Of a DNA stretch of 64,000 bases, positions 1-40,211 are shown in pieces. The notes under the pieces were generated by a model, which did not search any database, was not told where the DNA came from, and saw only the letters and a list, made by a program, of their open reading frames with translations. Both the position numbers and the translations under genes were made by a program. The stretch's first letter is position 1. Every line of letters starts with the position of its first letter. This stretch comes from Marinitoga lauensis. Lineage in GTDB: Bacteria; Thermotogota; Thermotogae; Petrotogales; Petrotogaceae. Location: the NCBI RefSeq assembly GCF_004135675.1, contig NZ_QHLX01000001.1, positions 1 to 64,000 on the forward strand. Reading direction: 5' to 3'.

Positions 1-551
1 CACCACGCAGCATTATTTAATCCAGAACACATCATTGTAGGATGAGGAAATTCTTTAGCTAAAATATATCCTTCAATAGCCTTCTTATATGCTTCATCAT
101 ATTTCTTTTCATCTCTAAACTTCCTTGCTTCAGAATATTTTAGTAATGACATCTGAACATAACTTTCATTATATTTATTACTGCATATATTTATATCACC
201 TAAATCATCATTATAAATGGAACTTAAATGTTTTAAACCTGGAAAATTAAATTTCTAACATACTCTGGAATAACAGAAAAATCAAAAAAGTATTCTTTTT
301 TAGCAAATAATAAGAATTTTATCTTTTCAAATCTTGTAAGTTCTTTTAGTATTGTTGTTGTTGTTGAAATAATAATATTTGCATATTTAAGAGCAATATT
401 ATGTTTTTTTCCATTTAGCTTTTAATAATTCAATATATAAATTTAAATGACTTTTTTTATCTAAAATTCCCATAACATAATTAAGGATAGGAAGAGAATA
501 TTTACCGTATTCAACAATACTAATAATTTTTTTTAAAGAAATTGCTTCCAT
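1..551 (-). pseudogene. Module A helix-rich regulator-like protein, N-terminal part, broken
   Basis: Reads from an ATG at 551 as a protein opening MEAISLKKIISIVEYG and continues past the left edge. It aligns along its length with the minus-strand protein at 15067-16511 (shared I-x-EYG-x-(F/Y)S-x-PI start, LLKYSEAR, FPHPTM-CSGLNNAAW). Two frameshifts break it, one in a 7-A run near 410 and one in a T run near 250. It is divergent from the small secreted peptide at 844, the same arrangement as the two other copies. I infer a peptide-responsive regulator of the alpha-helical repeat type; no named family is recognised. Whether the frameshifts are real cannot be decided here, because similar indels affect housekeeping genes in this window. 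Confidence 0.6.
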
Positions 552-781
552 TTTAATCACCTTGTATAACTATCTTAATATGATTGTTTCATAAAAATTC
601 AAAATAAGTTAAAATTAAAAACCAAGGAAAAATCCAAAATGAAAAAACATGAAAAAATTTTTTGAATTTATTAATATAAGAGAAATACAAAAAATATTAC
701 ATAAATGTAAAAGAAAACGAATTAATTAAAAATTAAAAAATTGCAGTTTCTAAAGCATTGATAAATAGCGGATTTTTATTT

Positions 782-802
782 TGGTTTTGTTTAACAAAAC
801 CA
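782..802. promoter_or_regulatory. Inverted repeat upstream of secreted peptide A
   Basis: GGTTTTG and CAAAACC form a 7-8 bp stem around a TTTAA loop, 42 bases before the GTG start at 844. A TAAAAT at 817-822 could be the -10 element; the -35 region would fall inside the repeat, so an operator role is plausible. Function is inferred only. Confidence 0.35.
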
Positions 803-843
803 TAAAATTTCATTGATAAAATGAAAATTGTGGAGGTGAAAAA

Positions 844-975
844 GTGAAAAAAATCATATTATTAATATTAATAATGTTTTTGTTTTCTATAATTATTTTC
901 AGTGATGAAAATAATGAAGATATTTATTCTACCGATTCAACCAATCCTCAAATTCAAACTGAAGTTTCTGAATAA
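844..975 (+). CDS. Small secreted peptide A (putative signalling pheromone)
   Basis: A 43-residue peptide starting with GTG after a strong GGAGGTG site. Residues 1-20 are a Sec-type signal: KK, then a run of I/L/M/F, then FS. The remainder is short and acidic and ends TDSTNPQIQTEVSE. Two paralogues in this window (12722 and 16792) share the signal-plus-STNPQ-QTEVSE design, and each is divergent from a copy of the same regulator. This is the usual layout of a secreted peptide signal and its receptor. It has no Cys residues, unlike the precursors downstream. No name is assigned; the pheromone role is inference from architecture. Confidence 0.7.
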   Translation: MKKIILLILIMFLFSIIIFSDENNEDIYSTDSTNPQIQTEVSE

Positions 976-1078
976 AAAACAGCTCTATGCTCAATTGTTT
1001 CATTAATATTATAACATATGATACTTTTGTAATACAATGTGGTTTTATAAACTAAAATCAAAATTTTTCAGCCGGCTG
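976..1078 (+). promoter_or_regulatory. Conserved leader block after secreted peptide A, ending in a perfect palindrome
   Basis: The stretch after the stop codon is almost identical to that after the module C secreted peptide (16922-17029): shared segments include GCTCTATGCTCAATTG and ACTTTTGTAATACAATGT. A candidate promoter inside is TTGTTT with a 16-base spacer and TATGAT. The block closes with CAGCCGGCTG at 1069-1078, a perfect 10-bp palindrome; module C has CAACCGGTTG, also perfect. Conservation of noncoding sequence with paired changes suggests an operator or RNA stem controlling the precursor/maturase genes. Confidence 0.55.
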
Positions 1079-1142
1079 ATTTTTCTTTAGTGCTAAAAAT
1101 TATGGGTAAATTTTTATAGGTAAATTAGAAAGGGGAAGATGA

Positions 1143-1289: not shown

Positions 1290-1423
1290 CTAAATGTTTT
1301 AAAGAATAAGAAATAAAATCCTAGGAATATGAAAAAAGATAGTTATTTTATAAAATTTAAAATTATCATAAAATGGATTAATAATACTAATTTCAGAAAT
1401 AAAAAACTTTGGGAGGTGAATGT

Positions 1424-2511: not shown

Positions 2512-2523
2512 GGAGGGATTTCT

Positions 2524-2673: not shown

Positions 2674-2677
2674 AATA

Positions 2678-2823: not shown

Positions 2824-2835
2824 ACTGGTGAAATT

Positions 2836-3647
2836 ATGAAAATAATAAAAAAGTTTTTGTATTTTCTTGCAAGAGACATATTAATATGGAAAAGCTATAA
2901 AACACAGGCAGTGTTGGGAATACTGAGTGGATTTCTGGATTATTACAATTTGGATTCATGGGCAGGTTTATAGCTCAAGGTAATTACTTCCCCATGATTG
3001 AACAGTATGGCGGAAACATACTTGCATATTTCATATCTGGAAGTGTATTCATGAGTTATACCACTCTCTCCCTGACAACATTTAAGAATGTAATAAGACA
3101 GGAGCAGGTAATGGGAACAATAGAATATCTGCTTCTGTCTGAAACGCCATTATGGGAAGTGTTTATATACACCATATTTTCAAAATTGGTATTTACAATA
3201 TTAAACACAGGAATAGTCTTTATATTTTTAATATATACATTTGACGTGGAAATAAAAATGAATATAATAGCTTCAATAATACTATTAATAATAACAATGA
3301 TAAGTCTAAGCGGAATAGGACTATTAAGTGCTGGATTCATTGTAATAACCAAAAAGGGAGATCCAGTAAGCTGGATATATTCATTTCTAACAGGAATGTT
3401 TTCAGGAATATATTATCCTGTAGAAATACTTCCAAAATGGTTAAGAGGAATATCCTATATATTACCAACAACATATGCAATGGATGGATTAAGAAAAACA
3501 CTCATAAAAGGATATAGTTTATATCAAATAAAAGAAGATATAATAATATTAATAATAATGACAATAATAATATTACCAATAGGAATATACTGGTTTAAAA
3601 ATAGTTTTGATAAAGCCAGGAAATATGGCACAATATCGCAATATTAG
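2836..3647 (+). CDS. ABC-2 type permease, frameshifted near its N-terminus
   Basis: ATG 2836 opens MKIIKKFLYFLARDILIWKSYK and stops at about 2971. The rest of the protein is in another frame (clear from about 2930, ATG 2958 internal) and runs to 3647. Joined it is about 270 residues with six hydrophobic segments and the FSGIYYPVEILPKWLR segment typical of ABC-2 (drug or polysaccharide exporter) permeases. Eleven bases separate it from the ATPase at 3659, so the two form one transporter. Its role in this operon is probably export of, or immunity to, the modified peptides (inference). Confidence 0.75.
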
Positions 3648-3658
3648 GAAGTGAAAAA

Positions 3659-4381
3659 ATGGAAACAATAATAGAAATAAAAAATCTGACAAAAATATAC
3701 AAAAATAGAATAAAAGCATTAAAAAACATAAATCTTACAATAAACAGAGGAGAAAAAATAACAATATTTGGACCTAACGGAGCAGGAAAAACAACATTAA
3801 TAAAAACAATAGGAATGTTTATAATACCCGATGAAGGAGAAATAAAAATAAAGGGATATGACATAAAAAAAGAAGTAAAACAAATAAAAAAATTAATATC
3901 GATAGCAACATCAAATGAAAGGTCATTTTACTACAGATTGAGTTTAGAAGAAAATCTAAACTTCTTTGGAATGTTAAATAACCTAACAGGAAAAGAATTA
4001 AAAAAGAAAGTGGAAAAAGGATTAAAAGAGATGGGACTATACGAAAACAGAAAGATTAAATATATGGAAGCATCAACAGGAATGAAGAGGAGATTAAATT
4101 TAGCAAGAGCATTAATAAAAGAAGCGGAAATATATTTATTGGATGAACCGACAAATGGAGTGGATATAGAAACAAAGATAAAGATATATGAAATAATGGA
4201 AGAATTATCCAAAAATGGAAAAACGATAATATTGGCGAGTCATGATGTTAGTGAAATAGAAAAAACGGATAGAATAGTGGTATTAAAAAAAGGAGAAATA
4301 ATAACAGACAGAAAAACAGGAGAATTACTGGAAAAAACAACAAGAAAGAATGAAGAGCGGTTACTGGAATTAATAAAATAA
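3659..4381 (+). CDS. ABC transporter ATPase of the ABC-2 pair
   Basis: A complete 240-residue nucleotide-binding subunit. Walker A is GPNGAGKTT near residue 40, the signature is STGMKRRLNLARAL near 140, Walker B with catalytic Glu is YLLDEPTNGVD, and the H-loop is ASHD. The STGM rather than LSGG signature is usual for DrrA/CcmA-like exporters working with ABC-2 permeases. It follows the permease at 2836 with GGAAGTG before the ATG. Confidence 0.88.
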   Translation: METIIEIKNLTKIYKNRIKALKNINLTINRGEKITIFGPNGAGKTTLIKTIGMFIIPDEGEIKIKGYDIKKEVKQIKKLISIATSNERSFYYRLSLEENLNFFGMLNNLTGKELKKKVEKGLKEMGLYENRKIKYMEASTGMKRRLNLARALIKEAEIYLLDEPTNGVDIETKIKIYEIMEELSKNGKTIILASHDVSEIEKTDRIVVLKKGEIITDRKTGELLEKTTRKNEERLLELIK

Positions 4382-4458: not shown

Positions 4459-4806
4459 ATGGGTAAAATAAAAATTATTTTTAAATTTGTATCTTCAAGA
4501 TTTGGAAAGAAAATAAAACGAAATGTGCTTTTTATAATGTTAATTTCAATTATAGTGAATATTCTCACTATAATATTGCCATTACTTCAAAAGAATATAA
4601 TAGATGCAATTATTAAAAATAATATTGAAAACGGATTAATTCTTGTTTTTCTTGTATCAGGATTAACCATTTCTATAATATATATAATAGAATCATTATT
4701 GTTAGAAAATCTATTCCTGAGTTTGACAGCAAATTCAAGATTTTTGAAAAATCGAAACGGTAGAATGCGGGTTTGCGACGATGAAAAGGGTGAAAATTGG
4801 GGTTGA
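4459..4806 (+). pseudogene. ABC exporter A, 5' fragment cut by IS insertion
   Basis: ATG 4459 is preferred over an upstream TTG because AAAGGAG lies six bases before it. The protein opens MGKIKIIFKF, has two hydrophobic helices typical of an ABC exporter transmembrane domain, then runs into the IS at 4716 and picks up foreign residues until a stop at 4804. The true continuation resumes at 6631, where the last 127 bases before the IS are repeated. Confidence 0.75.
4589..4715. repeat. Left 127-bp target duplication of the first IS1634-type element
   Basis: Identical to 6631-6757 and flanking the element exactly outside its terminal inverted repeats. Long, variable target duplications are a known property of IS1634 and relatives. 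It duplicates part of the exporter transmembrane coding region. Confidence 0.9.
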
Positions 4807-6630
4807 AAAATTTTTGTAGTGACACAAATATTTTTAACAATAGCGTTATATTCTTGATTTCATAATATTTTTGTGGTATAATAAGTAATGGTATTATGAA
4901 ATCAAGAGGTGATTTTTGTGTTTTTGAGAGTAGTTAAAAATAACAAAGGTGTTGAATATTTAAGAATTGTTGAAAGTTATAGGGAAAATGGTAAGATAAA
5001 GCAAAGAACTGTTGCAAACTTAGGAAGGATTGACTCTTTTAGTGAAAATGAAGCGAAAAATATAGTAAATAAACTCATACAAATATTTGATTTAAAAAAT
5101 TATATTGATACGGAAGATATAAAAAAAGCACCAGATAAAAGAAATTACGGAGCCAAAGTAATAGTAAATAAGATATTTGAAAGATATGAGATGAAAAGAT
5201 ATTTTGAAAGACTGGATAAAGAAATAAAATACAATGCAGAAGAGATGCTAAAAATAATGGTGATGAATAGAATAGTAGAACCGAAAAGTAAATTGGGAAT
5301 ATTTAATAATTTAGAGTATTTTGGATATAACAAAGTGGAAGTTAAAAAAGAAAAAGACCTGGAAGAAAAAGATGTAATGCTGCACTGGTTATACAGAACA
5401 TTGGATATATTGGCAGATAATAAAGAGTCGATAGAAAAACATATGTATAATCAAAGGATAAGTTTGTTTAATACAACGGTAGATTTAGTATTTTACGATG
5501 TAACGACATTAGCGTTTGAAACACAACAAACAAATGAAATATTACAAATGGGATATTCAAAAGATAAGAAATTTAATGAATCACAAATAGTATTAGGGAT
5601 GTCAATAGATCAGGATAGAATGCCAGTTAGTTTTGATATATATGCAGGAAATACATTTGAAGGGCATACATTTAAAGATTCAATAGAAAAAATGAAAAAA
5701 GAATATCAATTAGGAAAAGTAATAGTAGTAGCAGATAGAGGAATGATGAGTAAAAAAAATATAGAAGTAGTAGAAAATTCTAATTATGAATTCATAGTAG
5801 GAAAATCAATAAAACAAATAAAAAAAGTAAATATATTTGAAGGAGAATTCATAGAACTAGCAAAAGGAATAAAATATAGAGAAGTAGAATATGAAAATAA
5901 AAGATTACTCATAATATATTCAGAAGAAAGAGCCAAAAAAGACAGAGCAGATAGACTACGATTAATAGAAAAAGCGAAAAAAATGTTAGAAGAAGGAAAT
6001 ATAGATTCAAAAAGTAAAAGAGGAGCGAAAAAATATTTAAAAGAACAGAATAAACAAAATTATATACTGGACATAGAAAAAATAGAAAATGATGAAAAAT
6101 ACGATGGATACTATGGAATAATAACAAACACAAAACTATCTCCAAAAGAAATATTAGAACAATATCATACATTATGGAAAGTAGAAGAAACATTTAGAAC
6201 ATTAAAAAATTATCTTGAAACAAGACCGGTATTTCATTGGACACCAAAAAGAATAAAAGGACATATTGTAATGAGTTTCATATCTTACATAATTCAAAGA
6301 ACACTAGAATTAGAACTGGAAAAAAATAATGTTGAATACTCTCATGAAAAAATAAGAGAAGCTATTAAAAATATGGAATACATTGAATTTAAAACACAAA
6401 AGCAACATCTTGTAGCGAGAATGAATTTAAATAAATTAGGACAAAGAATATTAAATACATTAAATATTCCTGTACCAAAAATAATTTCACCCTATACAGA
6501 ATTCAAAGAAAAATATAAAATTTAGGGGTGTAATGACACTTTTGTATTTAATAAAAAATTAACAATAACTGTTTTTTAGAATAATACAGCTTTTCCAAAT
6601 TTTATTGAAATAAATACTGTCAAACTCAGG
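4716..6630 (+). mobile_element. IS1634-family insertion sequence, copy 1
   Basis: A 1,915-bp element with perfect 14-bp terminal inverted repeats CCTGAGTTTGACAG and CTGTCAAACTCAGG. It encodes one transposase and lies between 127-bp direct repeats inside an ABC exporter gene. Copy 2 at 17364-19294 shares a near-identical central coding segment but diverged ends. Confidence 0.92.
4918..6525 (+). CDS. IS1634-family transposase, copy 1
   Basis: About 535 residues; GTG 4918 is preferred over GTG 4909 because AGAGGTGA lies immediately upstream at normal spacing. An N-terminal domain (Y-LRIVES-RENGK) is followed by a DDE-type catalytic core: FYDVTTL, VVADRGMMSKK and the WKVEETFRTLK segment with the catalytic Glu. 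Intact. Residues from about 80 to 480 are nearly identical to copy 2, but the first 75 and last 60 residues differ strongly, indicating recombination between related elements. Confidence 0.9.
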   Translation: MFLRVVKNNKGVEYLRIVESYRENGKIKQRTVANLGRIDSFSENEAKNIVNKLIQIFDLKNYIDTEDIKKAPDKRNYGAKVIVNKIFERYEMKRYFERLDKEIKYNAEEMLKIMVMNRIVEPKSKLGIFNNLEYFGYNKVEVKKEKDLEEKDVMLHWLYRTLDILADNKESIEKHMYNQRISLFNTTVDLVFYDVTTLAFETQQTNEILQMGYSKDKKFNESQIVLGMSIDQDRMPVSFDIYAGNTFEGHTFKDSIEKMKKEYQLGKVIVVADRGMMSKKNIEVVENSNYEFIVGKSIKQIKKVNIFEGEFIELAKGIKYREVEYENKRLLIIYSEERAKKDRADRLRLIEKAKKMLEEGNIDSKSKRGAKKYLKEQNKQNYILDIEKIENDEKYDGYYGIITNTKLSPKEILEQYHTLWKVEETFRTLKNYLETRPVFHWTPKRIKGHIVMSFISYIIQRTLELELEKNNVEYSHEKIREAIKNMEYIEFKTQKQHLVARMNLNKLGQRILNTLNIPVPKIISPYTEFKEKYKI

Positions 6631-6757
6631 AAAAGAATATAATAGATGCAATTATTAAAAATAATATTGAAAACGGATTAATTCTTGTTTTTCTTGTATC
6701 AGGATTAACCATTTCTATAATATATATAATAGAATCATTATTGTTAGAAAATCTATT
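6631..6757. repeat. Right 127-bp target duplication of the first IS1634-type element
   Basis: Exact copy of 4589-4715. It starts directly after the terminal inverted repeat and rejoins unique exporter sequence at 6758. Confidence 0.9.
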
Positions 6758-8449
6758 TAGAAGTTTAAAGGGCCGAATACAATATGAACTATTGTCTTCC
6801 ATAACGAGACAGGATAATAAAATTATTGATCAAAGAGGACCCGGGCATATATGACAGGCCTTTTTGGGAATTCTGAACAAATATCAATGTTGTTAAAAAA
6901 GAATTACTTTTCCATGATTATAGGTGTTATGGTAAGTTTAGTTGCGTTAATAATCTCGGCAAAATGGACATTGATTTTTCCGGCATTAATTATAGTTTCT
7001 TATATATTAATATTTACTATAATAAAGATAACAAATAAAATACATATAAATAACTTTACAAAAGCACGGGAACTGGTATTTGAAACAAATCCAAAAGTGT
7101 TAGAGTTTATTGAAAACAAAAGAAGTATAAGTGGATATGGTAATATATTAAAACTTGAAAATATGGTATATGAACTATTTAAAAAAAGAGATAATTACTT
7201 TAAAAAAGCATCATACGCATCTATATTTGGTAATTCAGCGATAACCGCCATAAAAAATATAGTATTGACGTTATTTTTTATATTTGCAATGTTTCAAATA
7301 CAGAAAGAGAAGTTGGAATTATCAGCATTTATTGCAATATTATCCTACTTTCCTATTGTATTTAAACCTATAGATTCAATTCAGGAAATATATTCTAATA
7401 TAAATAAATTCGAAATGTTTTATAAGCGAATAGAAGATAATCTTTTAAAAAAGCCAAAATTATATTTACCTGAAAATAATACAATAAAAATAAACAATTG
7501 TTCATTTTCATATTCCAATGCGGAGATAATAGAAAACCTTAATCTGGAAATAAATAAAAAAATAGGTCTTGTGGGTTTATCTGGAGAAGGAAAAAGTACA
7601 ATATTAAAAATGATTTTTGGAGAAATATCTCCTCTTAAAGGATATGTGGAATTAGGAAATATTGATGTAAGAAAAATACATAAACCTTTTATTTATTCCA
7701 GTATAAAGTATTATTCACAGGAAATGGAAATATTTGATGAAGATTTGAATTTTAATGTGACTCTTGGAAAAATTGGATTACCTGAGAATGAATACATGGA
7801 AAAGTTGAAAAATTACAAAAATCAATTATTTAAATTTATGGAAGAAATAAAAAAAATGAAAGAGCCTTTGAATATTAAAACACTAAACAATGAATATATA
7901 GAAATGATATATGAAATATATAATATTAATGACTGTTATACAGAAAAGGAGAAAATCCTGTATGAAATAACAGAAAAAATTAGAAACAATAAAATTAATA
8001 TATCATTTATAGCTGAAGTACTATTTTCACGGAATTACTACATACGGGAAAAATATGAAAATATAATATCGGAATTGGAACTTGAAAAATTGGAAAATAG
8101 AAAGTTAGGTCAAAGAGGTAAAAAAATATCTGGTGGAGAAAAGAATAGAGTGTGTATGGCAAGATTTTTATTGCCAGAACATAATGGACCATTTATAATA
8201 GATGAACCATTTACAAGTCTTGATGCAATATCAGAAGAAAAAAATCTCAAAATATTGAAAAAATATATTGAAAATAAAAATGGCATAATAATATCGCATA
8301 AAATAAATGTCATAAAAGAATTGGCAGATGAAATAATAGTTATTGATAAAGGAAAAATAATAGAAAAAGGGAAACACGATGAATTAGTCAAAAATCAAAA
8401 ATTATACAGTAAAATCTACAGGAACTTTGTGAAAATGAAAAATGTATAA
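6631..8449 (+). pseudogene. ABC exporter A, main part after the IS
   Basis: The frame resumes in the right target duplication and continues into RSLKGRIQYELL, then shifts in a G run near 6842-6845 (one more G gives GPGAYMTGLFGNSEQIS); the long open part is 6851-8449. Remaining transmembrane helices are followed by a nucleotide-binding domain: Walker A GLSGEGKST, signature ISGGEKNRVCMARFLL, Walker B FIIDEPFTSLD and H-loop ISHK. Between Walker A and signature there is an unusual extra helical stretch of about 90 residues rich in E and K. No C39 peptidase domain is present, so the leader protease would have to be elsewhere. Removing the IS with one repeat would restore a gene of about 600 codons from 4459. 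Confidence 0.75.
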
Positions 8450-11746: not shown

Positions 11747-12450
11747 CTAAAATTTTTCAATAATAGAATCAAGAAAAGCTCTTTCATTATCTTCAAAAGA
11801 ATAATAGCCTAAAGCAACCATTTTTTGAGTAATGTTATACTTCAAAGCAAAAGATTTCAAATTACCATCAACTTTTGGAATAATAGCCCATTTTATATCA
11901 TACCTAACAGCATTCCTTAAAAACACATCGAAAATATTTTTTTTCATTATCAGATAAATTAAAATAATTAACAATAAATTCTTTTTTGTTTTTCATATTC
12001 TTTAATAACTTCAAAATTAAATTTTTTCTAGCAATATAAAATAAACTGGCTTTGGCAGGAAGTATATCTTCAGTGAAATGAAAATTATTATAAAGATTAT
12101 TTATCAGATTTTCTTCATGAAAATCTGATAACATCAAGTTAAAAAAATACATCTTCTCATAATCCCTTGAAAAGTATTTAATGATTTTATCTTTATTTCC
12201 TTCAAAAATCAATCTTAAAACATGACTTTTTGTAAAATGTGGTTTTTCTATTAATGCTGTATATGTTGCAAAAAACAATTTTGGTATCTTTCTTTCATTT
12301 TCTTTTTTAATTTGATTATATTATCCTTAAAGATTTTATTTATATGCATTTTATATAATTCATTTTTTATTTCATACGGATTGGTTTTGAAAAACTTCCG
12401 TACTCGACTATATCTATGATATTTTTAAGAAACATTTTATTAATCTTCAT
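11747..12450 (-). pseudogene. Module B regulator-like protein, internally deleted and frameshifted
   Basis: The N-terminus (ATG at 12450) reads MKINKMFLKNIIDIVEYGSFSKPI, matching the start of the module C copy, and stops after a few codons. Sequence homologous to the middle 250 or so residues is absent. It resumes near 12290 and runs as FFATYTALI...RLIFEGNKDKIIKYFSRDYEKMYF to the C-terminus, with another frameshift in an 8-T run near 11937-11944 (module C has 7 T). The C-terminal 470 bp is almost identical to 15091-15558, implying recent duplication or gene conversion. It is clearly non-functional as read. Confidence 0.7.
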
Positions 12451-12674: not shown

Positions 12675-12702
12675 TTGAAAACCATGTTAGAATTGCTAAA
12701 AT
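12675..12702 (+). promoter_or_regulatory. Promoter of secreted peptide B
   Basis: TTGAAA (12675-12680), 16-base spacer, TAAAAT (12697-12702), followed by GGAGGTGA and the ATG at 12722. The spacing and downstream layout match the module C promoter at 16746-16773. Confidence 0.6.
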
Positions 12703-12721: not shown

Positions 12722-12835
12722 ATGAAAAAAATAGTGCTTTTATTTATTACTCTTTTATTAATTTCAACAAATATTATTTTTGCAGGCGATAATGAGGATA
12801 AATATAAAACCGATTCAACCAATACTCATATTTAA
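12722..12835 (+). CDS. Small secreted peptide B, C-terminally truncated paralogue
   Basis: A 37-residue peptide with ATG after GGAGGTGAT. The signal sequence MKKIVLLFITLLLIS is followed by NIIFAGDNEDKYKTDSTNTHI and TAA. Where peptides A and C have a CAA (Gln) codon the sequence has TAA. The bases after it still read NDITE then TAA, recalling the QTEVSE ending. A nonsense change in a former pheromone gene is therefore likely. It is divergent from the decayed regulator B. Confidence 0.65.
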   Translation: MKKIVLLFITLLLISTNIIFAGDNEDKYKTDSTNTHI

Positions 12836-12984: not shown

Positions 12985-13374
12985 ATGGATAAGATAAAAA
13001 ATAAATCTCAAAAATATAAAAATTCAAGATTTAATGTTGAAATAAAAAAAGATGATGCCTGGATTATTTTTAATACATTCACCCATGGAATGCTTGAATT
13101 AAATGAGAAGTATTATAAAATTTATAAAAATTTTTATATTGAAAATCCAAAAATAGAGGAAAAAAATGAAAAGAATTATTATAAAAAAATATTAAGAAAT
13201 CCATTCTCGGGAGAACGTTTAAATTGTAAAGTATTACCATGGTGTATGGGAGGATGTTTTTTGCTCGAAACAAAAAAACTTGAAAAATGTATACCAGAAA
13301 AATATATTTTGAATGACTTGATAAAACTATATTATGAGGAGGCAACAATTAATGAAAAAAATTCTAGAGTTTAG
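12985..13374 (+). pseudogene. Radical SAM/SPASM maturase B remnant lacking the radical SAM core
   Basis: A 129-residue open frame. Residues 1-60 (DDAWIIFNTFTHGMLELNEKYYK) resemble the N-terminus of the intact maturase at 19535 (DDKIILFNTLYHS). Residues 75-125 are the end of a SPASM domain: CKVLPWCMGGCFLLE, then CIPEKYILNDLIKLYYEE, aligning with CFGGC...CIPEKYYLKEAI in the intact protein. The roughly 270 intervening residues, including CxxxCxxC and GGEP, are gone. The simplest reading is an in-frame internal deletion. It is followed with overlap by an ABC exporter, as in module C. Confidence 0.7.
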
Positions 13375-14985
13375 AGAAAAAAAGAATTTAGTAAAAATAA
13401 TAGAATTGATATTATTTTCATTTATAGGAATATGTTTATATTATGTATTACCGCTATTTACTAAATATTTAATTGATGATATTATAAGCACTAATAGTAT
13501 TAAAGGATTAAAAATCTGGTTATTTCTGGGATTGGGATTTTCAGTATTTTTGCATATATATATTTTTTATTTTTTAAAATATCAATGGGATAAAATACCA
13601 TTATATTTTTCTGTGAAATTAAAAAAAATAATACTGAAAAAAATATTTAAAATAAAAAAATATAATTACAAAAATTTTGACAAAGGACAATTATTAAATT
13701 ATCTTATTTCAGATAGTGGAACATATGCTAATGTAATGATTACTTATTTAGGAACTTTAACTATTGGGATATTAAGGGTAATTACAGGATATATAATCTT
13801 ATTTATAATAAATCCAATTTTATCTTTAATAAGTGCGATATTTATTCCTTTATATGTATTTTCTATGGAATAAATAAGAAAAAACTGGAACAATATTCAA
13901 AATTAGAACGAATTAAAGCTGATGAGTTTATTACAAATGCAAATAAGAATATAGAAGGAAAGATTCATATTAATTTATATCAGAAAGAAAAATATTTTGA
14001 AAAGATATTTGAAAAAAAATTAGAAGAATGGAGAAGTATTAGATTAAAATATTCATATTGGTATAATTTTGGAAAAGAAGTACCTATGTTTGTAAATACA
14101 TTATCTTCTTTTATAATAATGAGCATTGGTGGATATTATGTAATTTCACAAAAAATGACATTGGGAAGTTTAATAATGTTCTCACAATATTTAAGTATGC
14201 TTTTTGAACCATTAAGTCAAATTGCTCAGGCAATTGTAGAAAAACATTCAAATAAAGGAATATTAAATAGAATAGATGAATTTTATAATTATAATGAAGG
14301 AAAAAATTTAATCTTAGAAAGTAATAATAAAGATAACATTATAGAAATAAAGGATTGTACAATATATACGGAAAATAAAGAAAAATTATTAGAAATAGAA
14401 AATTTTATAATGAATAAAGATAATGGATTATATATTATAAAAGGAAAAAATGGAAGCGGAAAAACAACCATTTTAAATTTATTAACGCAAATATCCTCAC
14501 CTGAAATAATCAAAAAAAATAAAAAGAATTCTGTATTTTCTTTTTCTAAAGACTTTATTGAAAGTTGTTCATATTTATATAATCCTGTATATCTTTTTGA
14601 AGGCGATGTGAAAACAAATATTACATTTAACAATACAGAAAATCCACAATATCTAAAAGAGATAATTTCTATGCTAAATATAAATAATTTAGATAAAAAA
14701 ATAAATTTCCAAAATTTGAATATTTCATTAGGTGAAAAACAAAAAATACATCTGGCAAGAGTTTTATATTTTTCAAAAGAAAAAAATATTTTATTATTAG
14801 ATGAACCCCTTTCAAATCTTGATTATAAGACCAAGGAAAATATTAAAAACTACTTGAGTAAATTAAAAAAGGAAAAGATAATATTAGTTGTATCCCATGA
14901 AAATCTATTTGATGATATTGCTGATAAAATTTATAACATAATTGATAATAAAATTTTTGAGGAAAGGAAGGAGGTGGTAGAATGA
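13352..14985 (+). CDS. ABC exporter B (transmembrane plus ATPase), one frameshift
   Basis: ATG 13352 is preferred (GAGGAGG ten bases upstream); the gene overlaps the end of the maturase remnant. The frame breaks at about 13865-13870, where one extra G turns SME-stop into an uninterrupted GINKKKLEQYSK continuation to 14985. The combined product is about 544 residues: six-helix transmembrane domain, then Walker A GKNGSGKTT, a degenerate signature SLGEKQKIHLARVL, Walker [13 protein letters not shown] and H-loop VSHE. No peptidase domain. Probable role: export of the module B peptide product. Confidence 0.75.
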
Positions 14986-15051: not shown

Positions 15052-15073
15052 GGATTTACACAAAATTTACATG
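15052..15073 (-). repeat. Sequence resembling an IS256 end, possible scar
   Basis: On the minus strand it reads TGTAAATTTTGTGTAAATCC, very close to the left end of the IS256 element near 10135. No transposase is attached. It lies exactly between module B and the end of regulator C. Confidence 0.35.
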
Positions 15074-16511
15074 TTACCCGATAAAAACTTCTCAATAATA
15101 GAATCAAGAAAAGTTCTTTCCTCATCTTCAAAAGAGTAATAGCCTAAAGCAACCCTTTTTTGAGTAATGTTATACTTCAAAGCAAAAGATTTCAAATTAC
15201 CATCAACTTTTGGAATAATAGCCCATTTTATATCATACCTAACAGCATTCCTTAAAAACACATCGAAAATATTTTTTTCATTATCAGATAAATTAAAATA
15301 ATTAACAATAAATTCTTTTTTGTTTTTCATATTCTTTAATAACTTCAAAATTAAATTTTTTCTAGCAATATAAAATAAACTGGCTTTGGCAGAAAGTATA
15401 TCTTCAGTGAAATGAAAATTATTATAAAGATTATTTATCAGATTTTCTTCATGAAAATCTGATAACATCAAGTTAAAAAAATACATCTTCTCATAATCTC
15501 TTGAAAAATATTTGATGATTTTATCTTTATCTCCTTCAAAAATCAATCTTAAAATATTATTTTTGGTAAAAAATGTTTTTTTTATTAATGATGAATATGT
15601 AGCAAAAAATACAATTGAGAAATTAGAATCAAATATAGTCGTAATTTGATTAATGTTATTTTTAAATAAAAAACTAATATGTTTTTTATTAGAACTATCA
15701 TAAAAATCTTTATTAAATTTATTATCAATACTTATATTCAAAGAATTTTCTTTCAATTCATTCGTAATTCTTGAAATATCATATAAACCAATATAATTAT
15801 TAATTGAATAAACATCAAAAATAGTATCGAACTAATTATAAATTTTAAATAAATCTTCAAAATAATAACCGATATAATACTCCAGTAAATTTGCTACATA
15901 TAAAGCTTCCCTTTTATCAATATTCCTTATCCACCATGCAGCATTATTTAATCCAGAACAGATCATGGTAGGATGTGGAAACTTTTTTGCAAGGTTAAAA
16001 CCTTCAATAAACAAATCAAAAGCTTTAAAAAATCTTTATTATTTAAATATTTTCTTGCTTCAGAATATTTTAATAATGATTTCTGTGCATAACTACTTTC
16101 ATACTCTTCACTCCAATATCTAATAAGTTTATCATCAATTGAATTTGAAAATCTTATCTCCATAAATCTTAAAGCAGGAATAATAATTTTTCTTGCTTTT
16201 TTATTAAGAGATTGAATATTATTTTTAATCTTTCTTAGTTCAATATTAGCTTTTTTAATTTTATTATTATTGAATAAAATACTAATCTTTTCAAGGGTAG
16301 CAAGTTCATTTAAAATTTTAGTAGTAGTAGTAACGAGTTCAGCATATTTAAAAGCTTCTCTGTATTTGTTTTTCCATATGGATTTTAAGCATAAAAGATA
16401 ATAAACCAACCCTTCATCTTCAGTATTAGTTATAATATAATTCACAATAGGTTTAGAAAAAGCTCCATATTCTATAATATCAATTAGCTTATTTAAGGAA
16501 TAATGTTTCAT
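15067..16511 (-). pseudogene. Module C helix-rich regulator-like protein, frameshift plus in-frame stop
   Basis: The most complete of three copies, about 480 residues when joined. ATG 16511 (MKHYSLNKLIDIIEYGAFS) follows an AGGTG site; an upstream in-frame ATG at 16529 is less likely. The protein is almost all helical, with repeated K/E/L segments as in TPR-type peptide receptors. Near the C-terminus, LKSFALKYNITQKRVALGYY resembles a helix-turn-helix. Two lesions: a T-run frameshift near 16030 (DFFKAFDLF is restored by one T) and an in-frame TAG near 15833 after FKIYN; the remainder 15067-15756 is open. Divergent from secreted peptide C. Role as a peptide-sensing transcription regulator is inferred. 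Confidence 0.65.
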
Positions 16512-16745: not shown

Positions 16746-16773
16746 TTGACAGTCATATGAGAAATGCTAAGAT
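16746..16773 (+). promoter_or_regulatory. Promoter of secreted peptide C
   Basis: TTGACA (16746-16751), 16-base spacer, TAAGAT (16768-16773), then GGGGGTG and the ATG at 16792. A strong match to a housekeeping promoter, in the same position as the module B promoter. Confidence 0.7.
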
Positions 16774-16791: not shown

Positions 16792-16921
16792 ATGAAAAAA
16801 AATAATTATATTAATAATGACAATCATAATATTATCTTCAACGATGGTATATGGTGGTGATAAAAATAATTCAACTACTCATTCAACCAATCCTCAAACT
16901 CAAACTGAAGTTTCTGAATAA
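16792..16921 (+). pseudogene. Small secreted peptide C, frameshifted in an 8-A run
   Basis: ATG 16792 is followed by eight A residues. Removing one gives a signal sequence KKIIILIMTIIILSSTMVYG and the tail GDKNNSTTHSTNPQTQTEVSE; as written the frame ends early. The tail matches peptide A at STNPQ-QTEVSE. The second frame has no start codon of its own before an internal ATG. Slippage on the A run, genuine mutation and sequencing error are all possible. Confidence 0.65.
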
Positions 16922-17049: not shown

Positions 17050-17363
17050 AAAATATAATTGAAAGGAGGGATAAAATGCAAGGTGTAAAAGTAATAAAAA
17101 AACCTAGACCAAAATTATCAAGTATTTTCACTAATAATGATGGATGTACAAATACAAATTGTAATTGCAATGGCAAATAAAATTTTTAATAGGAGGAGTA
17201 TTCCCTCCATGCTAGTTAGAATGATATAGAACAAACTACATAGTTAAAACCAATTAAAATTAATATTTAGTTTTTTAGAGGTGATCTTATGAAAAAATCA
17301 AAATATACAATATATAAAAAAATAGATGACAAAATAATATTATTTAATACATTATACCATTCT
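17050..17363. repeat. Left 314-bp target duplication of the second IS1634-type element
   Basis: Matches 19295-19609 except for one G in a G run (GGAGGAG against GGAGGGAG). It contains the whole precursor peptide C1 gene and the first 25 codons of the maturase. Confidence 0.9.
17076..17180 (+). CDS. Cys-rich precursor peptide C1, left copy
   Basis: A 34-residue peptide, AAAGGAGGG before ATG 17076. The leader-like part is basic (VKVIKKPRPK); the tail is NDGCTNTNCNCNGK with three Cys and the CNC-x-G element shared with the WIEK precursors of module A. Identical to the copy at 19321; this copy is left of the IS, cut off from the maturase but next to the module C promoter block. Confidence 0.7.
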   Translation: MQGVKVIKKPRPKLSSIFTNNDGCTNTNCNCNGK

Positions 17364-17435
17364 CCTGAGTTTGACACTATTATTATCAACAAAATTCTAA
17401 AAAGTAGAATTATTCAAAAAAATAGCTATTGTTAA
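17289..17435 (+). pseudogene. Maturase C 5' fragment running into the IS
   Basis: The first 25 codons (MKKSKYTIYKKIDDKIILFN...) are identical to the intact maturase at 19535; the frame then enters the IS at 17364 and stops at 17433. It is the by-product of the long target duplication. Confidence 0.85.
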
Positions 17436-19294
17436 CTTTTTATAAAAAGAGAAATTAGCCACACACCTCCTCCTTTTTGGCTTTTCATGCGTGTTTTAGG
17501 AGATTATTTTTTTAAATTCATCTAATTCCATCATTTTTTTCGGTTTTTCTATTTTTAATGTTTTTAATATGGCTTTTTGAAAATCGTTTAAATTGGCTCT
17601 TAATGCAAATAATTTGTCTTTTAATCTTATTTCAGAGTATTCCATTTTTTTTATAGCTTCTCTTATTTTTTCATGAGAGTATTCAATATTATTTTTTTCC
17701 AGTTCTAATTCTAATGTTCTTTGAATTATGTAAGATATGAAACTCATTACAATATGTCCTTTTATTCTTTTCGGTGTCCAATGAAATACCGGTCTTGTTT
17801 CAAGATAATTTTTTAATGTTCTGAATGTTTCTTCTACTTTCCATAATGTATGATATTGTTCTAATATTTCTTTTGGCGATAGTTTTGTGTTTGTTATTAT
17901 TCCATAGTATCCATCGTATTTTTCATCATTTTCTATTTTTTCTATGTCCAATATATAATTTTGTTTGTTCTGTTCTTTTAAATATTTTTTCGCTCCTCTT
18001 TTACTTTTTGAATCTATATTTCCTTCTTCTAACATTTTTTTCGCTTTTTCTATTAATCGTAGTCTATCTGCTCTGTCTTTTTTGGCTCTTTCTTCTGAAT
18101 ATATTATGAGTAATCTTTTATTTTCATATTCTACTTCTCTATATTTTATTCCTTTTGCTATTTCTATGAATTCTCCTTCAAATATATTTACTTTTTTTAA
18201 CTGTTTTATTGATTTTCCTACTATGAATTCATAATTAGAATTTTCTACTACTTCTATATTTTTTTTACTCATCATTCCTCTATCTGCTACTACTATTACT
18301 TTTCCTAATTGATATTCTTTTTTCATTTTTTCTATTGAATCTTTAAATGTATGCCCTTCAAATGTATTTCCTGCATATATATCAAAACTAACTGGCATTC
18401 TATCCTGATCTATTGACATCCCTAATACTACTTGCGACTCATTAAATTTCTTATCCTTTGAATATCCCATTTGTAATATTTCATTTGTTTGTTGTGTTTC
18501 AAACGCTAATGTTGTTACATCGTAAAATACTAAATCTACCGTTGTATTAAACAAACTTATCCTTTGATTATACATATGTTTTTCTATCGACTCTTTATTA
18601 TCTGCTAATATATCCAATGTTCTGTATAACCAGTGCAACATTACATCTTTTTCTTCCAGGTCTTTTTCTTTTTTAACTTCCACTTTGTTATATCCAAAAT
18701 ACTCTAAATTATTAAATATTCCCAATTTACTCTTCGGTTCTACTATTCTATTCATCACCATTATTTTTAACATTTCTTCTGCATTGTATTTTATTTCTTT
18801 ATCCAGTCTTTCAAAATATCTTTTCATCTCATATCTTTCAAATATCTTATTTACTATTACTTTGGCTCCGTAATTTCTTCTTGCTATTTCTTCCATTAAA
18901 TCATCTTCTATTTTTTCATATTCATCTATTTCAAATATTTTAAAAAGACTATCTACAAGTTTTGTTATATCTTTTTTACTATACTTATCTATATTTCCAA
19001 AATTTATTACTGTATGCTGTTTCACTTTTCCATTTTCTCTTTTGCTTTCCATTATCCTTAAATATCTTTTTCCTTTCACTTTTGATATTTTAGGATACAT
19101 TTTAAAACATCTCCTTTCAGTGGTTGTCATATATATTATACCACCAAAAGGACTAATATATTACTAATTATAGTTAATTCTCTGTAACAAAAGTTAGCCA
19201 CACAATTTTTCGACTTCCTGAAAAATACACGCCTCAAACCCGCATTCTACCGTTCCATTTCCCTTAAAATCGCCAAATTGCTGTCAAAGGCAGG
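17364..19294 (-). mobile_element. IS1634-family insertion sequence, copy 2
   Basis: A 1,931-bp element ending CCTGAGTTTGACA on the left and CTGTCAAAGGCAGG on the right (imperfect inverted repeats), with the transposase on the minus strand. It lies between 314/315-bp direct repeats in module C, upstream of the intact maturase. Confidence 0.9.
17496..19100 (-). CDS. IS1634-family transposase, copy 2
   Basis: 534 residues from ATG 19100 (MYPKISKVKGKRYLRIMES), which follows AAGGAGATG; an upstream start at 19130 lacks a site. Catalytic motifs FYDVTTL, VVADRGMMSKK and WKVEETFRTLK are as in copy 1. The central 400 residues are virtually identical to copy 1 while both ends are different, for example the C-terminal KPKKMMELDEFKKIIS. 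Intact. Confidence 0.9.
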   Translation of the reverse strand: MYPKISKVKGKRYLRIMESKRENGKVKQHTVINFGNIDKYSKKDITKLVDSLFKIFEIDEYEKIEDDLMEEIARRNYGAKVIVNKIFERYEMKRYFERLDKEIKYNAEEMLKIMVMNRIVEPKSKLGIFNNLEYFGYNKVEVKKEKDLEEKDVMLHWLYRTLDILADNKESIEKHMYNQRISLFNTTVDLVFYDVTTLAFETQQTNEILQMGYSKDKKFNESQVVLGMSIDQDRMPVSFDIYAGNTFEGHTFKDSIEKMKKEYQLGKVIVVADRGMMSKKNIEVVENSNYEFIVGKSIKQLKKVNIFEGEFIEIAKGIKYREVEYENKRLLIIYSEERAKKDRADRLRLIEKAKKMLEEGNIDSKSKRGAKKYLKEQNKQNYILDIEKIENDEKYDGYYGIITNTKLSPKEILEQYHTLWKVEETFRTLKNYLETRPVFHWTPKRIKGHIVMSFISYIIQRTLELELEKNNIEYSHEKIREAIKKMEYSEIRLKDKLFALRANLNDFQKAILKTLKIEKPKKMMELDEFKKIIS

Positions 19295-19609
19295 AAAATA
19301 TAATTGAAAGGAGGGATAAAATGCAAGGTGTAAAAGTAATAAAAAAACCTAGACCAAAATTATCAAGTATTTTCACTAATAATGATGGATGTACAAATAC
19401 AAATTGTAATTGCAATGGCAAATAAAATTTTTAATAGGAGGGAGTATTCCCTCCATGCTAGTTAGAATGATATAGAACAAACTACATAGTTAAAACCAAT
19501 TAAAATTAATATTTAGTTTTTTAGAGGTGATCTTATGAAAAAATCAAAATATACAATATATAAAAAAATAGATGACAAAATAATATTATTTAATACATTA
19601 TACCATTCT
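19295..19609. repeat. Right 315-bp target duplication of the second IS1634-type element
   Basis: Copy of 17050-17363 with one additional G. It restores the precursor gene and the 5' end of the maturase downstream of the IS, so the maturase operon stays readable. Confidence 0.9.
19321..19425 (+). CDS. Cys-rich precursor peptide C1, right copy
   Basis: Identical 34-residue peptide to that at 17076 with the same AAAGGAGGG site. It lies 109 bases upstream of the intact maturase, the usual place for its substrate gene. A GGAGGGAGTATTCCCTCC hairpin at about 19435-19453 between the two could attenuate the maturase relative to the precursor. Confidence 0.72.
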   Translation: MQGVKVIKKPRPKLSSIFTNNDGCTNTNCNCNGK

Positions 19610-20809
19610 CTTGTTATATTTGATAATTACTATGAAAAAGAACTAATGAAATTATTGATTTCTCCTAATGAATTTCTAAAAAATACTAATAAAAATTTTT
19701 ATAAATTATTAATAGAAAATAAATTTTTAGTAGAGGATGATATAAACGAATTAGATTTATTAAAAAAATATTACGAATCATTTATTAATGAAAATTTAAT
19801 AATTAAAATATTTCTAACCCATTATTGTAATTTTAATTGTTCATATTGCTATCAAAATCATCAAAGAATTCATATATCGGATATTTATGAAAATGCTATA
19901 ATTAATTTTATAAAAAACAAAATAAATTCAAACATTAAGTCGGTTGTCTTGACGTTTTTCGGTGGAGAACCTATGTTATTAAAGGATAAAATTTTTAAAA
20001 TTTCAGAATCTGTATATAACATAATAAATAATAAAAATATAAAATTAATTGCGAATATAGTAACAAATGGTTCGATCTTCGATGAGAAATTTTATACAAA
20101 ACTATCAAAAGTTTCTGAACATATTAATATTCAAATAACACAGGATGGTTCAAAAAAGCGACATAATAAAAAGAGACCTTTTAAATCGGGTAATGGTTCA
20201 TATGAGATTATAATAAAAAATTTAAAAAAGTTAGATAATTTAAAAATTAAAAATATTAACGTCGTTTATAGATTAAATATTGATGAAGATTTTACAAAAA
20301 AAGATTTTGATGATTTGTACAAATTCAAAAATATAAATTATTTTCTTTCTATTGTAGGAATATTTAATAATCCAGAACAAGAAAAAAATGCAAATAACGA
20401 TAAATATGTATATGATTTGTTAAAAAAAGCGAAAGAAAAAGGTTTTGAAATTTCTAGCTTTTTTAAAAATCCATTATATAGTTGCAGTGCAGGATTACCA
20501 AATACTTTTACATTTACACCAGATGGTAAGATTACAATATGTACGGGAATAGAACCACTTAATAATGAAAATAATATGGGATATCTTGATCTAAAAGGTA
20601 ATTTAATAATAACAAATAAAAAATTATATAATAAATTATATAGCAGAAATAGAGATGTTTTTGAATTTGAAGAGTGTAGAAAATGTAACTTACTTCCTAT
20701 TTGTTTTGGTGGTTGTGCCTATGCAAGAAAAATAAAAGAGAAAAATGATTTTTGTATTCCAGAAAAATATTATCTTAAAGAAGCGATAGAAGTGGAATTA
20801 GAGGTGTAA
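19535..20809 (+). CDS. Radical SAM/SPASM peptide maturase C (complete)
   Basis: 424 residues, ATG after AGAGGTGAT. Residues 1-80 form a small N-terminal domain that could bind the precursor leader (inference). The radical SAM core has CNFNCSYC (CxxxCxxC) near residue 92, FFGGEP near 143 and IVTNGSIF. The SPASM region has CSAGLPNTFTFTPDGKITIC and C-x2-C-x5-C-x3-C in CRKCNLLPICFGGC, then a late CIPEK. This set is typical of enzymes that build thioether or C-C crosslinks in Cys-rich ribosomal peptides. It is the only complete maturase of the three modules, so it may serve all precursors. Two bases separate it from the exporter at 20812. Confidence 0.88.
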   Translation: MKKSKYTIYKKIDDKIILFNTLYHSLVIFDNYYEKELMKLLISPNEFLKNTNKNFYKLLIENKFLVEDDINELDLLKKYYESFINENLIIKIFLTHYCNFNCSYCYQNHQRIHISDIYENAIINFIKNKINSNIKSVVLTFFGGEPMLLKDKIFKISESVYNIINNKNIKLIANIVTNGSIFDEKFYTKLSKVSEHINIQITQDGSKKRHNKKRPFKSGNGSYEIIIKNLKKLDNLKIKNINVVYRLNIDEDFTKKDFDDLYKFKNINYFLSIVGIFNNPEQEKNANNDKYVYDLLKKAKEKGFEISSFFKNPLYSCSAGLPNTFTFTPDGKITICTGIEPLNNENNMGYLDLKGNLIITNKKLYNKLYSRNRDVFEFEECRKCNLLPICFGGCAYARKIKEKNDFCIPEKYYLKEAIEVELEV

Positions 20810-20811
20810 AA

Positions 20812-22376
20812 ATGGATTTGAAGTTAAAAAATAGATTATTGTTTTTATTTGAAATATTATTAAGAGTTGTGAAAGCTGTATTATTACCATTATTACTTAA
20901 ATGGATAATAGATATGATTACACAAAATCCTCAAATGTCGTTATATGGAGCATATTTGTATTCAATAATATTAATTATTGAATTAACTCTATTATTATAT
21001 TTTGGAGTTGCAAATAGACATATATGGCCTATATTTTATAAAGAAAAAATAAAATTATACTTATTTAAATCATTACATGACAAGAAAAAACTTTTTGATA
21101 ATGGGACATTGCTAAACATGATATTTGATGATACATATAATGACGTTGAACCAAATCAAATATTTTTTGCTATGTTTTATGGAAGACTGATAATAAGTAT
21201 AATATCGCTTGGCCTTATAGGATATATTGCAGGAGAAAAATATTTTATATTATCCTTAATTTATATAATCTTAATAGCTTTAAATTTACAATTACACCAT
21301 AAGATAAAATATGACAAAGTTAATGAAAAATATAAAAAACTTGTAGATAATCAAATGGATTTTATTTCTGGATATAAATCAATTTCTCAATATAATGTAT
21401 TTGATAAATTTTATAAAATGAAAGAACGATATGAGAATGAAAATATAAAAGAACATATGAAATATTATATAAAATATGCCTTTTTGAATCAAATCAATAC
21501 TTTAATAATGATTTTTTTTAATGTAATTATGATTTATATGCTATTAACGGATATAAAAAATGGTTTGATAACATTAGGAACATATTTTATGATATTTGAA
21601 CTCAAAGAAAATGTTGTGGATCCAATAGAAGTTTTTAAATTTCTAATAAATGAATATAAAAGAATAAAGGTTAGTAGAAATAAGTTGAAAGAAATAGATA
21701 AAATTGAAGAAATAGAATTAAATGAAAATATTGAAAGGATATTAGAAATAACAGAAAATCCTCAAATAGAATTAAAAAATATAAATTTTCAATATAATGA
21801 CAAAAAAACAATATTTGAAAATTTAAATCTAAAATTATCCGGTAAAGGATTGTATGTAATAAAAGGAGAAAGCGGTAGAGGAAAAAGTACATTGATAAAA
21901 ATGATATTAAGAATTATAGAACCACAATCTGGTGAAATAAAATTAAATGGAATAAATATAAAAAAGCAGAATATTAATTATATAAAAAATAATATAAAAG
22001 TATTAATGCAAGATAGTTCTTCTGTATATGGTTCTATAAAAGAAAATATAGATTTTGGAAGAAATTATGGAAGGGAGCAAATAATTGAGACACTTGACAG
22101 AATAGCCTTAAATAAATTCAAGGAAAATATTGATTATATAATTGATTTTAATGGTGAAAATATTTCTGGAGGACAATTAAAAAGAATATTAATAGGAAGA
22201 ACAATAATTGACAATTCAAAAATAGTAATATTTGATGAACATTTACAAATTTAGATGAATACAATAAGAATTTAATAATAAAAATAATAGAGGAAATAAA
22301 AGAAAAAAAGATGTGTATAGTAATAAGCCATGAAAACATTCTTGACAAAATAGCGGATAAAATCATAAATTTATAA
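20812..22376 (+). CDS. ABC exporter C1, frameshifted near the C-terminus
   Basis: ATG 20812 is two bases after the maturase stop. A six-helix transmembrane domain (residues 1-300) is followed by Walker A GESGRGKST and signature ISGGQLKRILIGR. In Walker B the frame breaks at 22240: IVIFDEHLQI-stop is read where one more C would give FDEPFTNLDEYN, and the other frame continues to VISHENILDKIADK and a stop at 22376. Joined length about 521 residues. Likely exports the matured peptide; no peptidase domain. Confidence 0.8.
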
Positions 22377-22385
22377 GGTGAGACT

Positions 22386-23986
22386 ATGTGGAAATTATTA
22401 AAAAATGTCGGATATAAAAATTTGATTATTTTCTTTTTAGCTGTAATATTTGGAGTGTTATCAATGGTATTTCAAATTGGAATACCATTACAAATAAGAG
22501 AGATACTTGATTATACTATTAATAATAAAGATATAAAAATTCAAATGATTATAACACTATTTTTGATATATATAATATCAGAAATTACTGAATTAATAAG
22601 TGGAATATTATCAACATATACAGAAATTTCTTCAGAAAAAGAATTAAGAAAAAAATTATTAAAAAATATAATAAATAACAAGAGCGAAAAAATATCCGAA
22701 AAAGGGGTAGGATATATTCAGACATTAATATTTGATGATATAGAAACATTTTTATCCATAATGCAACCAAGGATAGTAATAACATCATTATATACATTAT
22801 ATATACTTATTTCAGGATATATAATGTTCAAGATAAATATATTATATACAGTAATAATAATTTTTTATCTCATAAGCATATTTTTTTACTTTAAAATAGC
22901 TTTTAAAAAAATTCAAAAGGATTTCAGGAAGTTCAAAATAGTAAAAGAGAATTAAAAGCAAAAATCGAAAATCTATTAAAAGCACGTATAGATTTATATT
23001 TATATAATAAAATCAAATATTTTTTTGAAAAACAAAATAAAGGCTTTGATGAATTTACAGAAAAAAATACAAGAGCATATTCGATTAACCATATATATAT
23101 TAATATGATGCCAGAATATATAAGAACAATATCTTTTTCAATGATATTGATAATATCTATATATCAATTAATTTCTGGAATAATTACAATTGGAACATTT
23201 CAGATGATATTAAATTATTCTGGAACAATATTTATTATAGCTCAACAATTATCAATAATTACATCAGATATATCAAGAGCTCTCTCAACCAAAAATATTT
23301 TATTAGAATATATTGAAGATAATAAAAGAAAATCCTATAAAAAACCTAAAGAAGAAATAAATAATATTTTAGTTAAAAACTTATCATATGGATATAATGG
23401 ATCTAATTTAATTGAAAATCTTTCATTTTCTGCATATAAAAATGAAATTATAATAATAAAAGGACAAAGTGGAATAGGAAAAACAACTTTATTGGATATT
23501 TTAAGTGGAAGAAAAGAAATAGGAAAAGGTGAAATAAAAATAAACAATAATAATGATATAGGTATTAAAGATATAACTGACAAAATATCTTATATGACAC
23601 AAAATGATTATATATTTAATGAGAGTGTATATGAAAATATATCCTTGGGAAGAAATATAGATAAAGAAAAAATAAGGGAAATACTTGACTTTCTTAAATT
23701 AAAAGATATCCCTCTTGATTATAATTTAGAAAAAAATGGAAATAATATATCTGGAGGACAAAAATCAAGAATTTTACTTGCACGAGCATTAATAGCTAAA
23801 GAAAAAGAAATAATATTACTTGATGAACCTTTAAATGGTGTTGATAAAAAAACTAAGAAGAAGATTCTTGATGGATTAAATAAGTTTTTAAAAAATAAAA
23901 TTGTAATAATATCAACGCATGATAAAGATATAAGCAAAATAGGAAAAATTGTAGACATTGAAAAATATTCAAACTATTCTATTTAA
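22386..23986 (+). CDS. ABC exporter C2, frameshifted in the middle
   Basis: ATG 22386 nine bases after exporter C1. Transmembrane part 22386 to about 22940, then a shift (near AAAAGGATTTCAGG) into the frame that runs FQEVQNSKRELKAKI to 23986. The nucleotide-binding domain has Walker A GQSGIGKTT, signature ISGGQKSRILLARAL, Walker B ILLDEPLNGVD and H-loop STHD. With C1 it may form a heterodimeric exporter, since they are tandem, similar in size and divergent in sequence. Confidence 0.8.
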
Positions 23987-24283
23987 AAAGTTATTAGGAT
24001 TAATAAAAATTCTTCATTCAACAACATCGCCTGATCTTAAATTTCAATGTTCTGAACCAGAATATTAGTTCGGATTTATAAAATTGAACACAAACCAGTT
24101 TTTCAGAAATCTTCAATATAAATCTTAATGATCAACAACACAATACGCCACAATAAAATAAAAAATTAACAATATAAATAAATCAGTCGATATAATAAAA
24201 ATGTAAATTTATTAAAATTAATAAAATAAAAATTCACACAGAATTTATATTAATGTTATTGTTTTTTTGATAAAATTATTGTA
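23987..24283. other. AT-rich intergenic stretch
   Basis: About 300 bases between exporter C2 and the promoter region at 24284. No open frame with a ribosome site, no convincing hairpin terminator and no RNA gene seen. Confidence 0.5.
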
Positions 24284-40206: not shown

Positions 40207-40211
40207 TCATT

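Follow-up and report, generated by a model that had tools for sequence, protein, structure and literature searches.

Divergent pairs of a predicted tetratricopeptide-repeat regulator and a small, putatively secreted peptide recur across Thermotogota and may act as peptide-sensing switches

Intracellular peptide-receptor signalling is described for Bacillota and their mobile elements in the pertinent passages of PMC10075063 and PMC12700828, and those of PMC9765709 and PMC12700828 treat such systems in Firmicutes/Bacillota. The passages of PMC10075063 on the RRNPP signature set out five criteria for Firmicutes, including a propeptide of 10–100 aa that is secreted by Sec, a receptor of 250–500 aa with tetratricopeptide repeats (TPRs) and genes lying −60 to 400 bp apart, and they place the helix-turn-helix (HTH) domain at the N-terminus. 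A term search for "Thermotog" gave no occurrence in the main text of PMC10075063, PMC9765709 and PMC12700828, a literature search pairing RRNPP with Thermotoga returned nothing, and the literature searched held no account of the regulator-peptide pair reported here. For thermophiles, the relevant passages of a 2018 survey (PMC6022435) state that a complete two-component peptide system was not found and cite earlier work on peptide signalling by Thermotoga maritima in co-culture with a methanogen; this resembles the present case in that a peptide signal was reported for a Thermotogota species, and the same passages name no receptor of the family described below. Here, we analyze a window of 64,000 nucleotides from Marinitoga lauensis (G000:C7 of assembly GCF_004135675.1, contig NZ_QHLX01000001.1, from base 1), in which genes for one family of helical regulators stand three times opposite a gene for a small, apparently secreted peptide, and compare these pairs with their relatives in other genomes.

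The small open reading frames (ORFs) in question lie on the plus strand at 844–975, 12722–12835 and 16792–16921 (modules A, B and C), face minus-strand pieces of the regulator family and have a Sec-type start: each encodes a basic start, a hydrophobic stretch and then a polar tail, the tails being related. Radical S-adenosylmethionine (SAM), Cys-rich and ATP-binding cassette (ABC) genes follow downstream of the pairs. The divergent regulator/secreted-peptide arrangement that the original prediction had placed at these three sites is borne out by ORF reading and homology, and several of its details need correction. The regulators had been taken for proteins of about 480 residues; their family and divergent orientation stand, but each of the three window copies is either truncated or broken in frame. 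The frame of peptide A is intact, while peptide B stops before the conserved tail, peptide C has a broken frame and the 34-aa start originally noted for C is internal. Maturase and exporter genes do follow the pairs, but not all of them are intact, since radical SAM gene B lacks its middle and radical SAM gene A its 5′ part.

The pairing was counted in a larger set. From 100 hand-picked regions (99 at regulator matches, L141 at none) and the window, 100 ORFs with a regulator N-terminus were obtained, 97 of which have at least 420 nt upstream and form the basis of the count. A peptide was scored when a divergent ORF of 28–90 aa had a ribosome-binding site and a Sec-type start, that is, a basic start and a hydrophobic core recognized by script. 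Such an ORF is present upstream of the regulator in 67 of the 97 places, with its start 148–375 nt from the aligned regulator start; the same rule yielded 0/97 on the codirectional strand, 8/425 for control genes, 0/74 for control genes with an open upstream gap and 0.2% for shuffled upstream sequences. At least one paired place was found in 18 of 24 genera, and the counts by family are 44/57, 3/9, 7/9, 0/3, 1/4, 10/12 and 2/3. Two outcomes had been set beforehand as refuting the prediction, a lack of the adjacent peptide in most genomes and a peptide frame without conservation as protein, and neither occurred. Most of the regulator places examined have the peptide beside them, and its frame is conserved as protein, with pN/pS values of 0.59 (15 sequences), 0.64 (9), 0.42 (3) and 0.07 (3) in four sets. 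Inspection of the 30 unpaired places, together with two that have almost no upstream sequence, revealed several in which the promoter is kept and the peptide is broken or absent; others have nothing.

A full-length profile built from 24 sequences, the search across Thermotogota that had been proposed at the outset, matched 61 of 103 genomes (among those of high quality, 47 of 82) in 32 of 38 genera, and the divergent pairing recurs among them. In a separate search of 61 genomes, the 229-aa C-terminal piece of copy C matched 36, its own included; in its own genome it matches 12 places, several of which can belong to a single broken gene. In Pfam and NCBIfam, the family is covered by no model other than HTH and TPR ones that reach their cut-offs at best, the Pfam TPR matches being below cut-off only. 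Beyond Thermotogota, a metagenome-assembled genome (MAG) of Candidatus Psychracetigena (Candidatus Lithacetigenota) and two relatives match (3 of 31 genomes, one of them weakly), and one Dictyoglomaceae MAG also bears a match; these homologues (L157 and L185 for Candidatus Psychracetigena, L158 for Dictyoglomaceae) sit on MAG contigs, for which transfer and misbinning are both possible. Family members have about 455–607 residues, window-type relatives having ~473–481 aa and many other clades more than 500 aa.

Structure prediction for one homologue gave a confident AlphaFold2 (AF2) model with an N-terminal TPR superhelix, an internal HTH and a helical C-domain. The TPR part comprises 12 helices (residues 2–269), its top matches among solved structures are TPR proteins including the peptide receptors Rap and NprR, and in one of two structure comparisons a phage Rap-peptide complex is the closest structure to the modelled domain. 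In a 524-residue regulator HTH_3 is located at residues 291–340, behind the TPR part, and 63 of the 81 full-length regulators have 56 residues or more in the corresponding alignment segment. In the window's genus a complete HTH is absent from most regulators, at several of which the promoter element described below is still present. In the T. maritima-like genome G093 (L105, L106), the C-terminal domains of paralogues are 85–87% identical and the N-terminal ones 33–34%, a likeness of the C-domains that, judged by these identities, is strong local homogenization or gene conversion.

Alignment of the intergenic regions revealed a common −35/−10 promoter ahead of the peptides with an additional block directly after the −35 hexamer. 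Many of these promoters carry TTGAMA-RY-CATAT-N9-TANNRT, and a loose form precedes 46 of 68 peptides. The search pattern TTGAMARYCATAT-N9-TANNRT was derived from these same loci; it matches exactly at 84 sites, spread over 32 of the 103 genomes, compared with a single match when read backwards. Fifty-four of these sites are placed divergently, no more than 700 nt from a regulator match; among 24 inspected of the other 30, a strict peptide follows in five, and radical SAM/ABC genes are present within 3.5 kb downstream in 15 and absent in nine. Of the 32 element-bearing genomes 31 have the regulator, compared with 30 of the 71 that lack the element (Fisher p 4.5e-8, not a true probability as the genomes are related). 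The window contains two elements, before peptide B (CATGT form) and peptide C (exact). In Thermotoga modules an extra copy with no obvious peptide behind it was seen at L106 5972, L107 6703, L110 6547 and L117 7243 (matched-strand positions), and in f1g3 genomes (L167, L168, L174 and L176) solitary C-terminal regulator remnants lie by elements, some of them ahead of radical SAM/ABC operons.

Cargo was counted, as raw counts with no control set, for the 54 peptide-bearing modules for which 5 kb of sequence was available: a radical SAM gene lies within 5 kb in 25, an ABC gene in 35 and either in 39, and a small Cys-rich ORF within 3 kb in 21. The TM1315–TM1319 locus of T. maritima shows the same module, with divergent regulator, secreted peptide (TM1315 position), 31-aa Cys-rich peptide, radical SAM and ABC genes. 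In G093, the third regulator (1333322–1334908) stands opposite the gene for a secreted peptide of 57 aa, behind which come a Cys-rich ORF of 31 aa, a radical SAM gene and ABC genes; going by gene order, these would be TM1314 (regulator), TM1315 (peptide), TM1316 and TM1317 onward. Frock 2013 reportedly describes TM1316 as a stationary-phase peptide of 31 aa. Earlier studies reportedly treated TM1316 as the peptide of interest and are not known to describe a regulator or divergent signal peptide; in the present arrangement TM1316 itself would be cargo and not signal. The relation to the TM1316 locus that had been suspected holds in that the same module precedes the 31-aa Cys-rich ORF in G093. 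The other two G093 regulators (1340927–1342474 and 1350958–1352502) correspond in position to TM1322 and TM1332, as given in PMC4447916, and these two genes are members of the regulator family. In that paper deletions were reported in 10 of 50 isolates, including a 10-kb loss via crossover between repeats in TM1322 and TM1332. Pairs resembling hicAB (named by eye) adjoin the T. maritima modules. The passages of PMC4289311 on Thermotogae list one candidate sactipeptide cluster, in Thermosipho melanesiensis.

We consider it probable that each module is a peptide-receptor transcription switch working like the RRNPP systems of Bacillota, a reading close to the peptide quorum-sensing switch first proposed and favored by the pairing, the conservation of the peptides and the predicted TPR and HTH domains. 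The small gene would give rise to a Sec-exported propeptide, the polar tail of which may be processed into the signal. The signal would re-enter the cell and bind the divergent regulator at its N-terminal TPR domain, and the peptide-bound regulator would then raise or lower the activity of the peptide promoter, which often has the form TTGAMA-RY-CATAT-N9-TANNRT, and possibly that of a few further promoters that share the element. Such control would extend to the peptide gene and to the operon behind it, which often includes a Cys-rich precursor, a radical SAM maturase and an ABC exporter. The family, the pairing, the promoter element, the regulon-like sites and the predicted TPR fold of one homologue are directly supported here. 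Evenly balanced, in our judgment, is the wider proposal of an ancient, phylum-wide family of intracellular peptide-receptor signalling proteins that is Thermotogota's own, with TPR sensor, internal HTH and homogenized C-domain, in which many peptides converge on one shared element and a common regulon for production and export of modified peptides, the TM1316 locus included.

Set against RRNPP/RRNPPA systems (Rap, NprR, PlcR, Rgg, AimR), the modules are alike in the small propeptide, putatively of Sec type, beside a predicted TPR protein with an HTH in most cases, in the several paralogous pairs per genome and in the occurrence of HTH-less forms, as in Rap. The ORFs of 28–90 aa in 67/97 places (28–90 being the range of the filter) fall within the propeptide size, the AF2 model of one homologue has the TPRs, and the separation of 148–375 nt falls within the gene distance. 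The Thermotogota family differs in its phylum, in the internal HTH after the TPR part, where RRNPPA receptors have it N-terminal to the TPRs, in an extra conserved helical C-domain, in a length of about 455–607 residues, with window-type relatives inside the 250–500 aa of the signature and many other clades above it, and in a promoter element common across families. With its different domain order, and with a shared origin of the TPR domains only a possibility, the system is not filed as a member of RRNPP. Rgg has an N-terminal HTH; streptococcal radical SAM loci under Rgg/SHP control are similar in having a peptide-sensing regulator beside genes for modified peptides. SHPs are exported by PptAB according to the passage on them in PMC10075063, unlike the putatively Sec-exported peptides here. 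What emerges is a candidate one-component peptide system in 61/103 Thermotogota genomes, often in several copies, with an element that predicts its regulon; it offers a candidate regulator and signal for the TM1316 locus, with exact peptides, receptors and DNA sites, and, if correct, would represent a form of cell-to-cell peptide signalling in the diderm, often hyperthermophilic Thermotogota.

Other explanations have to be weighed. It is conceivable, though unlikely, that the regulator senses another cue (a nutrient, the state of the envelope, or the exporter or its product) and that the peptide gene merely comes first in the set it controls, where it might serve in immunity, in the envelope or as a helper of export. 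The peptide is indeed the first gene of the operon, and the TM1316 locus is said to be induced in stationary phase and by nutrients, which fits nutrient sensing too. Peptide tails vary widely among clades and several regulator places keep the promoter without a peptide; both points speak for this reading. Sensing of another cue sits less well with a pairing that stays while the cargo varies, and with a modelled TPR domain whose closest structure, in one of the two comparisons, is a known peptide receptor.

Something other than the divergent protein, such as a variant sigma or a different regulator, might read the element, with no binding there by the divergent protein; this would suit the retention of the element at several of the window-genus regulators without a full HTH. 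The element is in part an ordinary −35/−10 promoter, and a profile comparison gave no support for a kinship of the C-domain with sigma region 4, which we count on the same side. CATAT, however, lies outside the −35 and −10 hexamers and is conserved across families, and all but one of the 32 element-bearing genomes also have the regulator family, so that we consider such a factor rather improbable. Hardly credible is a toxin-antitoxin-like pair carried along with export genes, in which the hydrophobic peptide would be a membrane toxin controlled by the divergent regulator: peptide size, the single hydrophobic stretch and the neighboring hicAB-like pairs would suit it, but the hydrophobic part directly follows the basic start, frequently closes with A, G or S, as signal peptidase sites do, and leads into a polar tail (by eye), and a 12-helix TPR regulator would be an unusual antitoxin.

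In module A, regulator A (3–551, minus strand) is an N-terminal fragment truncated where the contig ends, its roughly 183 initial codons being spread over three frames; for these pieces tblastn with the relative L046 gave 76.9, 63.1 and 92.5% identity, and there are profile (HMM) matches. The divergent intergenic control region (552–843), for which an alignment was made with modules B and C and with 22 places from the same genus, contains no match to the promoter pattern in strict or looser form. Peptide A (844–975, plus, as are all following genes of this module) has 43 aa, a GTG start and an intact frame, and its type recurs at related places. It is followed by the Cys-rich candidate modified-peptide precursors A1 (1143–1289; close relative in L058) and A2 (1424–1570; relatives in L059), the radical SAM/SPASM maturase A without its 5′ part (1573–2511; NCBIfam TIGR04463, E 3.9e-59, under the curated cut-off; 92.6% to the L059 protein from residue 131 of the latter on), the Cys-containing small ORF A3 (2524–2673; no family match in Pfam or NCBIfam) and a frame-broken copy of a Cys-rich precursor, A4 (2678–2821; compared by eye with the L058 precursor). 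An ABC-2 type permease and ATPase (2836–4381; L049/L058 relatives at 86–94%) and an ABC exporter gene (4459–8449) complete the set, both named by eye; the latter is split by a transposase-like gene (4909–6525), with pieces of the L049 protein at 4459–4689, 6630–6869 and 6845–8446.

Module B consists of regulator B (11750–12450, minus; homology pieces, start codon from sequence reading), most of whose N-terminal half is missing, and, on the plus strand, a putative peptide promoter/operator (12675–12702) with 0 mismatches to the looser CATRT pattern, which places its CATGT form outside the exact CATAT matches, peptide B (12722–12835) with its in-frame stop, the intact type of which is found in L053 of the same genome, radical SAM gene B (12985–13374), in which both ends are present (residues 1–60 and 356–439 of the L050 protein), and ABC exporter B (13334–14985) with one frame break (89.6 and 88.7% to the L050 protein).

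In module C, regulator C (15070–16511, minus) is near full length and frame-broken; it is 81–86% identical to L042, and its close relatives lack the HTH segment. L042 and L044 (476 aa), ~81–86% identical to it, have intact frames. On the plus strand, a putative peptide promoter/operator (16746–16773, exact pattern match) is followed by peptide C (16792–16921; aligned start 16792), which is broken near its start and has intact relatives, by the 34-aa Cys-containing precursor C1 (17076–17180; relatives in L044 and L114) and by a radical SAM 5′ fragment (17289–17435, by eye) beside a transposase-like gene (17496–19130, minus). A second copy of C1 with identical protein (19321–19425, ORF reading) lies beyond, so that the transposase-like gene is flanked on both sides by the same 34-aa precursor; it is highly similar to the one in module A, both being named by eye. 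Next come an intact radical SAM/SPASM maturase C of 424 aa (19535–20809; Pfam PF04055, E 1.5e-16; NCBIfam CefB/Clo7bot-type below cut-offs; 93.6% to the L044 protein), two frame-broken ABC exporters (20812–23986; 89.3% and ~84% to L044 proteins) and a frame-broken ABC-2 type ATPase with permeases (24425–26355; homology, names by eye).

Much of the frame breakage in the window is probably assembly error, because ordinary genes nearby are frameshifted as well: in the stretch 38900–49400, this applies to four of seven genes by comparison with a same-genus genome. This assembly, the completeness of which is 87.9%, thus seems prone to small indels. The losses inside radical SAM gene B and regulator B, and the transposase-like genes that break into modules A and C, may be real. 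After module C, further split ABC exporter genes lie at 26770–33482, where reading by eye brought no peptide or regulator to notice.

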